Assembly: GCA_021161545.1 (NCBI GenBank) | Contig: JAGHAJ010000241.1 | Coordinates: 1 to 7,802 of the forward strand | Direction: 5' to 3' | DNA length: 7,802 nt | DNA from: Synergistota bacterium | Lineage (GTDB): Bacteria > Synergistota > JAGHAJ01 | In this document: positions 1,183-6,460 of the stretch, piece by piece | Layout of the letters: each line of letters begins with the position of its first letter | Position numbering within the stretch: the first letter of the stretch is position 1 | Notes under the pieces: generated by a model | Seen by the model: the letters and a program-made list of their open reading frames with translations, nothing else | Databases searched by the model: none | Told to the model about the DNA's origin: nothing | Program-made: the position numbers and the translations under genes

Positions 1183-1941
1183 TTAACTATCAAGAGGTAC
1201 CACAAGCGGTACATCTCTGTAACTTACTATCTCTGCCTCTATGCCGTATGCCCTCTTTATGTTCTCCGGAGTGATAGTATCAAACCCTCCGCACGAAAGT
1301 ATCTTCCCATTCTTGAGTATGAGAAAATCATCGGCATATCTCATCGCAAGGTTTATATCGTGAAGCGCAACAACAGCAGACATATCCCTTTCTGCCACAA
1401 TCTCTTTTATAATCCTCATTACCTCTATCTGATTCCTTATGTCAAGGTTATTAGTAGGTTCATCTAAAAGCAAGACTTTGGGTTGCTGAACCAATGCCCT
1501 GGCTATGATTACCTTTTGCAACTCCCCTCCACTTATCTCGTCTATACGCTTTAAAGATATATTTTCCAACCCCATCTTTTGAATAGTATCTTCTACAATC
1601 CCTATATCCCTTCTGGAAACATCCCACCTTATATATGGCTTTCTTCCAAGAAGAATTGTATCAAACACGGTAAGCATGCCTTCACTATACCTCTGCGGAA
1701 CATAACCAATATACTTAGCAATTTCATTCTTGCTCATTTCCGCAAGATTTTTCTTTTCCACATACACAGTTCCTACCCTGGGCTTCAAAACACCATCTAT
1801 GCACTTTAAGAGAGTCGTCTTACCGGCACCATTCTCACCAAGAATGGCACACACCCTACCCCTCTTTAACTCAAATTCTATATCCTTAAGCGTTACTTCA
1901 CCATTATAACCAAATCTGATACCCTCCACATACAAAATCAT
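1183..1941 (-). CDS. ABC transporter ATPase, FepC/BtuD type
   Basis: This 252-residue cytoplasmic ATPase powers import of a metal chelate or cobalamin-like compound by the upstream permease. All nucleotide-binding motifs are intact: Walker A GENGAGKT (35-42), Q-loop Gln83, signature ISGGE (136-140), Walker B VLLLDE (156-161) and switch His194. The length and the C-terminal region (GFDTITPENIKRAYGIEAEI) fit the FepC/FecE/BtuD family. I chose the ATG at 1941 because it overlaps the permease stop as ATGA and lies downstream of GGAGG. The in-frame GTG at 1953 is inside that SD sequence and would add four residues. It is the last gene of the operon. Family assignment is firm, but the substrate cannot be read from the ATPase. 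Confidence 0.93.
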   Translation of the reverse strand: MILYVEGIRFGYNGEVTLKDIEFELKRGRVCAILGENGAGKTTLLKCIDGVLKPRVGTVYVEKKNLAEMSKNEIAKYIGYVPQRYSEGMLTVFDTILLGRKPYIRWDVSRRDIGIVEDTIQKMGLENISLKRIDEISGGELQKVIIARALVQQPKVLLLDEPTNNLDIRNQIEVMRIIKEIVAERDMSAVVALHDINLAMRYADDFLILKNGKILSCGGFDTITPENIKRAYGIEAEIVSYRDVPLVVPLDS

Positions 1942-3011
1942 ATCCCCTTCCACCTCCTCGTGAGGATATACAGGAACAGGGGAGCTCCCATAAAAGACGT
2001 CACTATTCCAACAGGAAGAACAACTGGAGCTATGACTCTCCTTGCCACTGTATCAGATACAAGCAGAAGAAGGCTACCACCCACAATCGAAGCAGGTATA
2101 AGGAATCTGTGGTCCGAACCTACCATCCTCCTCATAATGTGTGGTCCAACAAGCCCTACAAACCCTATGATACCAAGAAAGGCCACTACAACCGCCGTAA
2201 CAAGAGAAGCAAAAAGCATACCGTATATCCTTATTCTCTCCACATCCACCCCCAAGGAGCGTGCACTATCCTCACCCGCATCCAATGCATTATAGTTCCA
2301 CCTATTTAGCATGGCATAGAGAGAAAAGGCGACCATAATGATAGTCATTATACATACATCTCTCCACGTTGCACGTCCAACATCTCCAAACGTCCAGAAA
2401 ACAATAGAAGCAACCTCTATATCCGTAGCAAAGTATTCAACAAGCATGGTCGCAGCTGTGAACAAAGAACCCATTGCTACACCCGCCAGAATCATCGCTT
2501 GGGGTGTAACTCTCGCAAATCTCGTCAGAAGAAGTATAACAACAGTGGATATAACAGAGCCCAAAAAGGCACAACCCGTTACAGTTAAAGGGCTGTTTAC
2601 TATAACAGCATCTGAACTACTACTATGGATACTACCTGCACCCAGAACAACTATTGCAAATGCCGCTCCAAACGCAGCCCCCTGAGAGACACCAAAGGTA
2701 TACGGCGAGCCTAAAGGATTCTTTAACAGGCACTGCATTACACTACCAGCTACAGAAAGTCCTGCACCTGCAATCACAGCAGCCAGTAACCTCGGCAACC
2801 TTATATTCCATATAACAATGTGCTGTGTTCCCTTCCCACCCTCAAACAGGACAGAAAGTACCTGCCACACAGACAAATGTATAGAACCAACGGATATAGC
2901 ATATACGGCCATTGCAAAAAGCAGTGCAGAAGAAAGCAATATAAATTGATACTTCCTCTTTACATACCCCGCATACTCTTCACTTAACTTCAACCCTCTT
3001 GAAACCCCCAA
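1938..3011 (-). CDS. FecCD/BtuC-type ABC transporter permease
   Basis: This 357-residue inner-membrane permease has the usual length and multi-helix pattern of the FecCD family, which forms homodimers with about 10 membrane helices each. Family hallmarks are RLPRLLAAVIAGAGLSVAGS near 71-90, then KNPLGSPYTFGVSQGAAFGA, GIIGFVGLVGPHIMRRMVG, and the C-terminal SDTVARRVIAPVVLPVGIVT. The proposed start is a TTG at 3009-3011, with GGAGG 6 nt upstream. This overlaps the preceding binding-protein gene by 32 nt; no in-frame ATG occurs before the first membrane helix. The stop overlaps the ATPase start as ATGA. A single permease gene serves two upstream binding proteins. The substrate class (iron siderophore, haem, cobalamin or other metal chelate) is not resolved. 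Confidence 0.92.
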   Translation of the reverse strand: MGVSRGLKLSEEYAGYVKRKYQFILLSSALLFAMAVYAISVGSIHLSVWQVLSVLFEGGKGTQHIVIWNIRLPRLLAAVIAGAGLSVAGSVMQCLLKNPLGSPYTFGVSQGAAFGAAFAIVVLGAGSIHSSSSDAVIVNSPLTVTGCAFLGSVISTVVILLLTRFARVTPQAMILAGVAMGSLFTAATMLVEYFATDIEVASIVFWTFGDVGRATWRDVCIMTIIMVAFSLYAMLNRWNYNALDAGEDSARSLGVDVERIRIYGMLFASLVTAVVVAFLGIIGFVGLVGPHIMRRMVGSDHRFLIPASIVGGSLLLLVSDTVARRVIAPVVLPVGIVTSFMGAPLFLYILTRRWKGI

Positions 3012-4065
3012 AATCAGCCTCCATCCTGCTATACACTGGCTTACCTACCAAAAACTTATAAGTATCATCTGCCTTCTTTATAGGCTCAACCGAAGAAAAT
3101 ATGTCAGGATAAAGAATCTTACCTACATAGTAAGCATCTGAAAGGGCCGTCCCTATATTGGTGGTATAGAAGTTATACGGTAATAAGCCATACACCTTCC
3201 CTCTCTTAAACGCCTTCAAAGAACGATAAAAATCCGGATGACTCTTGTAATCCAACCTCCATACAGAAATGCCTCCTTCATCAATAAATACCACATCTGG
3301 ATTCCACACCAGTATTTTCTCCCTATCTACAGAAACCCATCCTTCAACTCCAAGACTATCCACAACATTCCTCGCATTAACCACCTGAAACGGAGGATAC
3401 TTTCCCATCGTGCTTTCTATACCATGCATCCCCTTATGTCCTATACCACCAACATAAACACCAACCTTTTTACTTTCCGAGATGTCAGCCGTTTTATGCT
3501 GCAGATATGAAACATTGTTTCTGATAAAAGATACAATGCTATTGGCTCTGTTTGAATCACCCAGAACCTCACCCAGTATCTGCAGAGAGCGAAATACATA
3601 CCTATTTGTGAATGTCGCCAGTTTCCCGTAGGAAAGAACTACAACAGGAATGCCAAGTTTCTGCTGAAGGGCATTGGCTGAGTCTGCGCTCATATATGTA
3701 GCTATTATTACATCAGGATGCAACTTCAATGTCTTTTCGAGGTTTGGGCCCTCCCCTATAGCCTGAGGTCCACCTCTACCTATGCTGGGAAGTTTAAGCA
3801 ATTCTCTATGCGCCAATATATAAGGCCTACCCACTGCTCCCCTTTTCTTCTCAAAATCTTCCACTCCAACAACCCTTTCAGCAGCACGCATATACACAAC
3901 CAATCTCAACGCTCCCGGGCCAGAGCACACAATCCGATTAGCCCTGCTGGGTAAACTAATCCTCCTACCAGCCATATCAGTCAGAGTAAACGCAAAAACC
4001 GTTCCTATAGAAAAGATAAAGACAAATAAACACACAAAAAAGAGTAAGAACCACCTTCTAAACAT
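2980..4065 (-). CDS. Periplasmic binding protein, FecB/BtuF type (second paralog)
   Basis: This 361-residue class III solute-binding protein (Peripla_BP_2 type) would deliver cargo to the FecCD permease. Residues 1-25 are a Sec signal peptide ending VFA with no lipobox, so the mature protein is free in the periplasm. The mature N-terminus FTLTDMAGRRISLP is the standard family opening, followed by RIVCSGPGALRLVVYM and HPDVIIATY. A His-containing segment, GMHGIES around His214, precedes YPPFQVVNARNVV (223-235), and a similar segment occurs in the upstream paralog. The ATG at 4065 is preceded by GGGGTGAT. It overlaps the permease gene by 32 nt. Residues about 309-339 are almost identical at DNA level to the upstream paralog, although the rest has diverged. 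Cargo is unknown. Confidence 0.88.
   Translation of the reverse strand: MFRRWFLLFFVCLFVFIFSIGTVFAFTLTDMAGRRISLPSRANRIVCSGPGALRLVVYMRAAERVVGVEDFEKKRGAVGRPYILAHRELLKLPSIGRGGPQAIGEGPNLEKTLKLHPDVIIATYMSADSANALQQKLGIPVVVLSYGKLATFTNRYVFRSLQILGEVLGDSNRANSIVSFIRNNVSYLQHKTADISESKKVGVYVGGIGHKGMHGIESTMGKYPPFQVVNARNVVDSLGVEGWVSVDREKILVWNPDVVFIDEGGISVWRLDYKSHPDFYRSLKAFKRGKVYGLLPYNFYTTNIGTALSDAYYVGKILYPDIFSSVEPIKKADDTYKFLVGKPVYSRMEADFGGFKRVEVK
3049..3140. repeat. 92-bp near-identical patch, copy in second paralog
   Basis: Positions 3049-3140 match 4273-4364 at 88 of 92 positions (differences at 3062, 3097, 3130 and 3133), in the same orientation. Only one difference is clearly an amino-acid change (Thr335 against Ile). 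The flanking parts of the two genes are much less alike. Confidence 0.85.
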
Positions 4066-4203
4066 CTATATCACCCCACAGTCAAAGCAACAACAGACTA
4101 ACCTTCATAAAAGACATCATAATGCTGCGCGTATTTCTCCTTCTCCAATAAAAACTTCTCATACTCATAACAGGCATTCCACTCAACTCCTTTACACTAA
4201 ATT
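4066..4203 (-). other. 138-bp spacer between the two binding-protein genes
   Basis: This is the only sizeable gap in an otherwise overlapping operon. One frame has a real SD (AAAGGAG, 9 nt spacing) before ATG 4177 and encodes 31 residues (MPVMSMRSFYWRRR..., ending SLLLL) to a TGA at 4082-4084. A different frame (4098-4196) lacks a start codon but reads more like ordinary protein, including YEYEKFLLEKEKYAQHYDV. No hairpin followed by a T-run was seen, and no convincing promoter. It may be a small gene or leftover coding sequence from the duplication that made the paralogs. Confidence 0.35.
4082..4177 (-). CDS. Possible small ORF of 31 codons
   Basis: The ATG at 4177 follows AAAGGAG by 9 nt, and the frame ends at TGA 4082. 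The peptide is basic, then hydrophobic at its end (SFYWRRRNTRS followed by FMKVSLLLL). No family is recognised. The competing frame on the same strand looks more protein-like, so this ORF may be spurious. Confidence 0.2.
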   Translation of the reverse strand: MPVMSMRSFYWRRRNTRSIMMSFMKVSLLLL

Positions 4204-5295
4204 TTATCTTAACTCAATCCTCTTAAATCCTCCAAAGATTGCCTTCATACGATTATAAAGAGGCCTTCCCAACAAAAACTTATAAATATCATCTGCCTTC
4301 TTTATAGGCTCAACCGAAGAGAATATGTCAGGATAAAGAATCTTACCTACATAATAGGCATCTGCAAGGGCTGTTCCCTTGTTGTAAGCAAACCAACAAT
4401 ACGGAAGGACTCCGTATATCTGTTTATGTTTGACTGCATACAGCTCCGCATATATTGGGTCTTTTATCTGCGATAACACAGAGGAAATAGAAGATTCGCT
4501 CACAAATATGTAGTGAGGATTCCATTTCATAAGTGCCTCCTTACCAACACCAACTCCCTTACCAAATTTTGAGATCCCACTTGCAACATTCCGGGCATTC
4601 ACCCATTCAAAAGGTGGCCAGTGGGGATCTGTTCCTAACAAACCATGTGAACCGTAATATGCCCTGCCAGCAATATAGACACTCTCTTTCTTTGATACAT
4701 TCCGGGTAAGTTTATTTAAGCTTGCAATATTGGAGTTTATATAGTCTACAACAGCTACAGCCCTCTTTTCTCTACCAAGGACCTTTCCCATTATAGAAAG
4801 CGACCTAAAATACATACGCCTCTGCTTAATCGTCCCAATGGGACCAGCATATACTACGACAACCGGTATCTTCAATTTCTCCTGGAGCTTCTCCGCATCT
4901 CCAGCAGTAATAAACGCCACAAAGACAACATCGGGAGAGAGCTTAACTATCTCCTCTAAATTAAGGGCACCTCCCTTTCTAACAGCAGGCAATTTGGAAA
5001 ACGAAGGATATGCCATCATGTAAGGTAAATCCGTTCCACAAGGATATTTGCCTTCTTGCCTTTTGAGCATCTTTTCCCTCGCTTCAAGTCCAACAACCCT
5101 ACTCAGACTCTCACCTTGCAGGAGATAAACCACTTCCCTCAAAGAACAGGAAAGCGCAAGGACCTTCTTTGCAACCCCCTGGAGAACCACCCTTCTACCC
5201 GCCATATCCACCAGACTGATAGATGCCATCGACACACTCGCCATTACAAAGAGCAAAACCGACAGAAAAACAAGCATCAAAGCTCTACTTCTCAT
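4204..5295 (-). CDS. Periplasmic binding protein, FecB/BtuF type (first paralog)
   Basis: This 363-residue Peripla_BP_2-type binding protein has a signal peptide of about 24 residues (cut after SMA, no lipobox). The family opening SISLVDMAGRRVVL follows, then LSPDVVFVAFIT (119-130) and IPVVVVYAG. The segment GSHGLLGTDPHWPPFEWVNA (215-234) parallels the downstream paralog and includes a shared HG (His217) and NARNV. It shares the whole C-terminal stretch GTALADAYYVGKILYPDIF, then SSVEPIKKADD, with that paralog. The ATG at 5295 overlaps the methyltransferase stop as ATGA, with AAAGGGGGG 6 nt upstream, so the two are probably translationally coupled. That makes a functional link with the methyltransferase likely. 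Cargo is unknown; both paralogs may present related ligands to one permease. Confidence 0.88.
   Translation of the reverse strand: MRSRALMLVFLSVLLFVMASVSMASISLVDMAGRRVVLQGVAKKVLALSCSLREVVYLLQGESLSRVVGLEAREKMLKRQEGKYPCGTDLPYMMAYPSFSKLPAVRKGGALNLEEIVKLSPDVVFVAFITAGDAEKLQEKLKIPVVVVYAGPIGTIKQRRMYFRSLSIMGKVLGREKRAVAVVDYINSNIASLNKLTRNVSKKESVYIAGRAYYGSHGLLGTDPHWPPFEWVNARNVASGISKFGKGVGVGKEALMKWNPHYIFVSESSISSVLSQIKDPIYAELYAVKHKQIYGVLPYCWFAYNKGTALADAYYVGKILYPDIFSSVEPIKKADDIYKFLLGRPLYNRMKAIFGGFKRIELR
4273..4364. repeat. 92-bp near-identical patch, copy in first paralog
   Basis: This is the partner of 3049-3140, 1,224 bp away as a direct repeat. It encodes the C-terminal helix region (residues about 311-341) of the first binding protein. 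Recombination between the two patches would delete the second paralog's body or fuse the two genes in frame. Confidence 0.85.
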
Positions 5296-6323
5296 TGCTT
5301 ACCCCCCTTTCTCGCCACAACAAGCTTATCTGCATTACTAAAATCCTCAACCCTTATCGCCTTAAAGCCAAGACCTTCCAGAAAATCAACATACCCTTCA
5401 AGAGATACATCTCCTTTAAAGCTATACATTCTCCTATCTTTCTTCATGCCATCAACTGTCCACATATACCACCAGAGTTCGTCTATAGAACTTTTATCTC
5501 TTCCATCAACAGGAAAACTCTGCTTTGAGACAAACATACCACCATCATTGAGTGCATTGTATATTTTTTTCACAACTTCCGGATTCTTCCCTCCTGGATT
5601 ATAGGAAGAAAACACCATATCATAGCCCTTCCCAATATCATCTTTAAAGAAATCACCCGATAAAACATGGACCCTATTCCCAAGCTCAAACCTCTCTATA
5701 TACCGTTTTGCTTCTCTTGCCACCTCCGGAAGGTCAAAAATATACCCTCTCATTTCCGGATTCGCAAGCGCAAATCCGACAGTATAAATGCCGTGCCCCC
5801 CACCTATATCGAGCATCCTCCTCACATTTCTGAATGCTGAAATACTACACACTACATCAAGCGTCTTCTGAAGCTCCCCACACATTGCTTCCACACACAT
5901 TCTATGTATAACATGCCTTGCAAAAAACTCACCCTTAGAAAGTTTGAATGGTCCCTCCTTCAAAAGCTCAGACAGCTTTGCCCAGATGGAAATATCGTTG
6001 GAGAAACTCTCTATTGCATCACACACAGAAAAAGGGCTCCTTTTAGTCAAGTATCTGCTCGTTACACTGGTATTCACATACCCATCTTCATCTTTCCTGA
6101 GAAATCCAACCTCAACCAAGGCATTACAAAGACCTTCAAGTATCAGAGGTTCGCAAGAAAGCTCGCAAGAAAGCTCACTTACACTCTTTGGAGACTCCAC
6201 AGCATCAAACAAGGACAGTTTCACTGCAGCTAACAGCATGTAGTAGAGTTTGAGTTGCTCCATTGAGTTGGAAATAACACTCCACAACTTCTCTAACTCT
6301 GCTCCATCGCTGAAAACTAACAT
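5292..6323 (-). CDS. SAM-dependent methyltransferase, O-methyltransferase (Methyltransf_2) fold
   Basis: This 343-residue protein (using ATG 6323) has an N-terminal dimerisation/winged-helix region (about 20-95) and a C-terminal Rossmann domain. The domain holds the SAM-binding motif LDIGGGHGIY (171-180), an acidic residue after the second strand in FDLPE (Asp197), and LSGDFF (222-226). This is the plan of acetylserotonin/caffeate-type and bacterial small-molecule O-methyltransferases. Where those enzymes carry the LHDW catalytic segment, this one reads MVFSSYNPGGKNPE (236-249), so the usual catalytic His is missing. The substrate and even the methylated atom are uncertain. I prefer ATG 6323 because GGAGG lies 5 nt before it; ATG 6335 has no SD and overlaps it. 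As first gene of a transporter operon, with an ATGA overlap to a binding protein, it probably acts on the imported compound. Confidence 0.8.
   Translation of the reverse strand: MLVFSDGAELEKLWSVISNSMEQLKLYYMLLAAVKLSLFDAVESPKSVSELSCELSCEPLILEGLCNALVEVGFLRKDEDGYVNTSVTSRYLTKRSPFSVCDAIESFSNDISIWAKLSELLKEGPFKLSKGEFFARHVIHRMCVEAMCGELQKTLDVVCSISAFRNVRRMLDIGGGHGIYTVGFALANPEMRGYIFDLPEVAREAKRYIERFELGNRVHVLSGDFFKDDIGKGYDMVFSSYNPGGKNPEVVKKIYNALNDGGMFVSKQSFPVDGRDKSSIDELWWYMWTVDGMKKDRRMYSFKGDVSLEGYVDFLEGLGFKAIRVEDFSNADKLVVARKGGKQ
6151..6174. repeat. 12-bp perfect tandem duplication inside the methyltransferase gene
   Basis: TCGCAAGAAAGC occurs twice in tandem and yields the repeated tetrad in ELSCELSCE (residues 50-58) of the dimerisation region. 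It keeps the frame. Confidence 0.85.
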
Positions 6324-6351
6324 CCTACCCTCCATAAAATAATACTCATCG

Positions 6352-6373: not shown

Positions 6374-6401
6374 ATAATAGCACAAAAGGGAAGGATGTCA
6401 A
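6374..6401 (-). promoter_or_regulatory. Promoter of the methyltransferase-transporter operon
   Basis: On the minus strand, TTGACA (6401-6396) is followed by a 16-nt spacer and TATTAT (6379-6374). This gives a start near 6367 and a leader of about 45 nt, too short for a cobalamin riboswitch. No other strong promoter was seen within the operon, so it probably drives all five genes. Confidence 0.65.
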
Positions 6402-6438: not shown

Positions 6439-6460
6439 AGGGGCACATTGAAGTGCCCCT
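6439..6460 (-). terminator. Rho-independent terminator of the LivJ-like gene
   Basis: On the minus strand, AGGGGCAC and GTGCCCCT form an 8-bp stem around the 6-nt loop TTCAAT, starting 8 nt after the TAG stop. It is followed by TTTGCTCTTAT (the last base of the stem and the tail together make TTTT). It separates this gene from the downstream operon promoter. Confidence 0.75.

Follow-up and report, generated by a model that had tools for sequence, protein, structure and literature searches.

The window, i.e. the whole stretch of DNA analysed here, is a complete 7802-bp contig from a Synergistota-related genome (1.58 Mb in 288 contigs, 82% complete). ORF and Pfam analysis placed five minus-strand genes in a single unit, encoding a methyltransferase (MT), two binding proteins (SBP1 and SBP2), a FecCD permease and an ABC ATPase. 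All five proteins scored well over the Pfam cut-offs, in agreement with the earlier note, which had described a Methyltransf_2 enzyme heading a FecBCD/BtuFCD-type operon with two binding proteins. The features are:

6460..6439, minus strand: intrinsic-terminator-like site of the upstream LivK-type gene, parting the two units (consensus match only)
6401..6374, minus strand: candidate sigma-70-like promoter of the operon's own, TTGACA-16-TATTAT (11/12 consensus matches; called by pattern match alone, with 1.2 chance matches expected over the 500 bp scanned)
6335..5292 or 6323..5292, minus strand: MT (Methyltransf_2 and Dimerisation), first gene; PF00891 54.8 bits, PF08100 41.4 bits
5295..4204, minus strand: SBP1 (Peripla_BP_2); PF01497 71.4 bits
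4066..4203, minus strand: 138-bp gap between the SBP1 and SBP2 genes, with a 32-codon open stretch lacking a start codon
4065..2980, minus strand: SBP2 (Peripla_BP_2); PF01497 59.2 bits
3011..1938, minus strand: FecCD permease, listed with a TTG start and overlapping SBP2; PF01032 307.8 bits
1953..1183, minus strand: importer ABC ATPase (ABC_tran); PF00005 113.6 bits

The MT and SBP1 genes share an ATGA, readable directly in the sequence (GGGGTAAGCAATGAGAAG), which confirms the coupling noticed earlier. Since a Shine-Dalgarno-like GGAGG lies upstream of the second MT ATG, 6323 is probably the true MT start, as the earlier note had it. The open stretch in the SBP1-SBP2 gap (CKGVEWNACYEYEKFLLEKEKYAQHYDVFYEG) is perhaps a gene remnant; no relative was found among the neighbourhood loci compared. 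At its 3′ end the operon converges on a plus-strand gene. The product of plus-strand positions 409-1128 is probably secreted and matches Peptidase_C39_2 only weakly, below threshold. A search of the window against Rfam matched zero RNA families, so by this measure there is no cobalamin riboswitch; that part of the earlier claim that nothing else is in view stands, whilst the missing TonB receptor and biosynthesis genes reflect the limit of the contig, the window being all of it. Contamination, or a stray archaeal contig, was ruled out because the tetranucleotide profile of the operon agrees with that of its own genome (r 0.81-0.88) and because the SBP signal peptides, judged by eye, have no lipobox Cys.

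The MT consists of a Dimerisation domain and a Rossmann SAM domain with a DxGGGxG motif, both domains exceeding their Pfam gathering scores (54.8 versus 22.3 for the catalytic domain, PF00891, and 41.4 versus 25.6 for dimerisation). Its AlphaFold2 model (pLDDT 90) was matched by Foldseek to 3mcz, RedM, ASMT, DsyB, DtpM and BchU, with TM values of about 0.62-0.72. Small-molecule methyltransferases of the Methyltransf_2 family methylate O, N, S or C, and the fold therefore does not reveal the substrate. Against the curated model for BchU, the bacteriochlorophyllide C-20 methyltransferase (TIGR02716), the MT scored below the cut-off (36.5 versus 276.1). We also compared the active sites. The window MT reads SYNPGGK where it aligns to the LHDW segment of ASMT, which we take to be the site of the catalytic His, and so departs from the classical plant/ASMT-type O-methyltransferases. 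The motif S-x-N-P-G/S-G-K/R occurs in nearly all 60 main-clade rows, with single-residue departures in a few (YIPGG in L135 and L143); a Trp and a Tyr are also conserved across the clade. Sister clades next to NifDK-like or DUF364-like genes do not have the NPxG motif. As judged from this replacement of LHDW, the MT is not a classical His-base O-methyltransferase.

The importer has the make-up of a FecBCD/BtuFCD-type system: Peripla_BP_2 binding proteins, FecCD permease and ABC ATPase in one operon. Its proteins match many models for iron, haem, B12 and F420-0 uptake, none at the curated cut-off. With NCBIfam, the scores were 227.8 (cut-off 334) for BtuC, 125.1 (281) for BtuD and 20 (234) for BtuF; 190 (261) for the haem ATPase and 30 (298.65) for IsdE of the HmuTUV/IsdE test; and 199 (372.4) and 201 (437.35) for the F420-0 importer. 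The ATPase matches FecE-, haem- and F420-0-type models, all sub-cut-off. SBP1 and SBP2 are tandem paralogues, 44% identical, and the nearest solved structure to both is 2etv, TM0189 of Thermotoga maritima (9e-71 and 5.8e-117, respectively); we found no open-access paper on the ligand of TM0189. MolA (HI_1472, 3psh) is also among the SBP homologues. In the SBP tree, the two are sisters (support 82) inside a 17-row group marked 98*, which holds 12 SBPs of archaeal MT loci and three from Synergistota and is separate from the usual Synergistota FecBCD SBP clade. The branch to SBP1 is the longer (0.96 versus 0.40), which marks SBP1 as fast-evolving. Compared with 41 relatives, SBP2 keeps the family residues at most positions whereas SBP1 has lost near-invariant ones: S49(Gly), C50(Gly), A209(Gly), G221(Ser), S266(Asp), C300(Asn) and F302(Tyr). 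This pattern fits a changed ligand for SBP1.

To place the MT among its relatives we scanned 84,980 species genomes by motif and recovered 80 loci. The top-ranking relatives come from archaea (Archaeoglobus, Methanothermococcus, Methanoregula, Methanosarcina and Bathyarchaeia), and the window MT both carries the NPxG motif and falls in a starred, mostly archaeal clade of 30 rows; this and the other trees were built quickly, with SH-aLRT as the sole measure of support, and the genes counted on them are not independent. The archaeal MT genes are internal to FecBCD operons or close them, follow directly on a five-gene NikABCDE-type importer, or neighbour ZnuABC-type genes. The order SBP-MT-permease(-ATPase) was seen at at least eight loci, and SBP-permease-ATPase-MT at others. 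The earlier note had raised conserved adjacency of the MT to importers as the point to survey, and the clade indeed lies mostly beside metal importers: a metal-type ABC importer was found within 4.5 kb of 35 of the 48 genes from the MT clade and its sisters (the other 13 were unlinked) versus 3 of 43 other Methyltransf_2 proteins, a difference for which the Fisher value of 4e-11 is only a guide, since the rows are relatives of one another and were sampled for their resemblance to the window.

We also searched 294 archaeal genomes, drawn evenly from the phylum to which a Methanoregula MAG belongs, with an MT threshold of E<1e-70. The MT was found in 46 genomes; 24 of the 43 copies examined were importer-linked (15 Fec, 8 Nik and 1 Znu) and 19 were unlinked within 4.5 kb, mostly belonging to two compact subclades, with an icd-like or a metK-like neighbour, or to Methanosarcina-type genomes. 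Of the rows in the combined tree, 32 were labelled Fec, 14 Nik and 5 Znu, with 26 unlinked; the importer labels required 18 changes versus 36.6 when shuffled, i.e. repeated switches that are yet clustered. In L236-L239, from Methanomicrobiales-type genomes, MT-clade genes are divergent from an archaeal MetK-like gene and far from importers. In Methanosarcinales/Methanophagales-type genomes (L134, L144, L149, L158, L241 and L243), methyltransferases of the sister clade stand in tandem, accompanied by PNPOx-like, cupin and NifDK-like genes.

In Bacteria, by comparison, the clade was present in 2 of 299 Bacillota genomes, both times near ZnuABC-type genes. Within Synergistota, an SBP1 relative occurs in 69 of 149 genomes and the SBP-FecCD-ATPase unit is common; an MT adjoined that unit in none of the 19 neighbourhoods examined. 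A 20th neighbourhood, G025, was picked for its related gene and reads permease, ATPase, SBP, MT and DUF364-like gene; it is the only other place in 185 Synergistota genomes where a Methyltransf_2 gene adjoins FecBCD genes. We rejected G025 as an orthologous case because its MT sits in the DUF364-linked subclade. A plasmid search returned only generic methyltransferases with <60% identity. With the clade mainly archaeal and its bacterial carriers rare, the window's lineage may have acquired the gene by transfer.

The company kept by the MT copies bears on the metal. Of 77 copies, 9 have a gene for a CooC-like ATPase no more than 4.5 kb away, the nearest PDB entry of this ATPase being the CooC of CODH (3kje). 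FmdE genes are equally close to 9 of the 77. At L089, a five-gene MT-linked importer has both permeases over the curated nickel cut-offs (Opp2B 375 versus 350, Opp2C 318 versus 300), with its SBP below. The window's own genome holds a fragment of CooS, the CODH catalytic subunit, with ferredoxin and NikR at one locus (G000:C77, L253), as well as a NiFeSe_Hases-family gene and a distant CooC-like gene (29%). Taken together, the CooC-like neighbours, the L089 permeases and the CooS, NikR and NiFeSe genes make nickel the favoured metal. None of the nickel-specific family models covers the window's importer, and upstream of the MT neither of two classical NikR-type operator motifs was present, nor any 8-mer in common with the nikR/CODH upstream region. 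FmdE was not found in the genome (82% complete). TrmO_N-FmdE fusion proteins adjoin FecBCD-MT operons at L103:2542-3642 and L090:8604-9434. In Methanosarcina barkeri, oligopeptide/nickel-type SBPs and a neighbouring pair of ‘iron(III) dicitrate-binding’ SBPs change with the Fe/S source (PMC10846266).

Since the MT clade accompanies three unrelated importer classes (FecBCD, NikABCDE and ZnuABC), the shared factor is probably a metal and not one transporter, and it is to the metal that the job of the MT is most likely tied. Our preferred reading, held at a little short of even confidence, is that the operon serves the import of a divalent metal, with nickel the favoured candidate, and that its MT is an accessory enzyme methylating a small metal ligand. 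Two periplasmic binding proteins would be served by one FecCD/ATPase translocator; a dedicated SAM-dependent MT would be co-produced with the importer in this anaerobic Synergistota-related bacterium; and the MT would methylate a small common metabolite, thereby making or tailoring a metal ligand for uptake or cytosolic hand-over. We infer the metal, the ligand, the atom methylated, the reaction and its direction (making or unloading) from this pattern. A wider proposal is put forward more tentatively still: anaerobic archaea and a few bacteria would have an undescribed metal-ligand chemistry whose only dedicated enzyme is the NPxG methyltransferase, which, by methylating a common metabolite, would make or unload a carrier of nickel or a related metal on behalf of three unrelated importer classes.

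The direction could be reversed. If a metal-ligand complex were imported, the MT might methylate the ligand in the cytosol so that affinity drops and the metal is freed, which would suit its tight coupling to the SBP genes, the many archaeal operons in which its gene separates SBP from permease, and the want of synthesis partners nearby. ZnuABC-type partners are generally thought to take in bare ions, however, and no ligand is known, and we regard unloading as doubtful, though worth keeping in mind. The same partners bear on the earlier note's argument that the enzyme acts on the imported compound: the survey ties the MT to metal-chelate import, as argued, but action on the compound itself is weakened because NikABCDE- and ZnuABC-type importers handle different ligands or bare ions. 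Of the cargoes then suggested, a corrinoid, haem or other tetrapyrrole modified by the MT is now disfavoured, and we think it very unlikely. The BtuC and haem-importer models do score well, and there is the weak BchU similarity (36.5 bits), but all B12 and haem models stay under cut-off, the cobalamin riboswitch is absent by Rfam and tetrapyrroles ill suit Nik- and Znu-type partners. Moreover, a separate locus in the genome (G000:C182, L263) encodes CbiK (match below cut-off), FecCD, ATPase, SBP and a CbiA-like protein, and probably serves corrinoid supply.

Molybdenum or tungsten could replace nickel, as in DUF364-linked FecBCD systems. DUF364-like genes adjoin distant MT relatives (G025, L102), FmdE genes neighbour MT copies, MolA is among the SBP homologues, and one FecBCD-type locus with DUF364-like and MoeA-like genes (L078 in G022) points the same way; yet the window MT lies outside the DUF364-linked subclade and the window has no DUF364 gene, which leaves a Mo/W module improbable. 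In full, L078:3474-11444 encodes DUF364-like, MoeA-like, SBP, small methyltransferase, NTPase, second SBP, ATPase and permease proteins, resembling a Mo/W-type FecBCD system. About equally improbable is that the operons shared with importers are incidental, the MT serving some unrelated pathway. The two subclades that have the same active-site motif away from importers, adjoining icd-like or metK-like genes, would agree with this; the repeated pairing with three importer classes, far commoner than among outgroup methyltransferases, would not.

The uptake of nickel, cobalt and iron by strict anaerobes in sulfidic water, above all by methanogens and Archaeoglobi, is little understood. A recurrent MT beside the metal importers of anaerobic archaea hints at an undescribed step in trace-metal acquisition, and its recurrence next to three importer classes offers a concrete handle on anaerobe metal uptake, testable in a genetic model, e.g. 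Methanosarcina.

Compared with known FecBCD/BtuFCD-type importers (class III SBP), the window shares the SBP, permease and ATPase families, and its SBPs match 2etv strongly; it differs in that one permease is paired with two tandem SBPs and the operon opens with an MT gene, all cargo-specific models being sub-cut-off. With the Methyltransf_2 enzymes matched by Foldseek the MT shares domains and DxGGGxG, differing from ASMT in its SYNPGGK. DUF364 proteins (PF04016), whose genes have been noted in a metal-transport context (PMC2954201), are likewise cytosolic, Rossmann-type, substrate-orphan proteins adjoining metal ABC importers, but are of another family, and their genes turned up only close to distant relatives of the MT (G025, L102, L133 and L146). 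Opine metallophore systems (staphylopine Cnt, nicotianamine-like) have in common the idea of a small ligand with a dedicated ABC importer; unlike them, the loci examined had no recognised synthase or dehydrogenase gene, or other ligand-synthesis gene, with the MT. The open-access literature gave no description of a link between this MT and metal importers, most subscription papers being outside its coverage. The importer is thus known in kind, whilst its enzyme partner appears to be undescribed.
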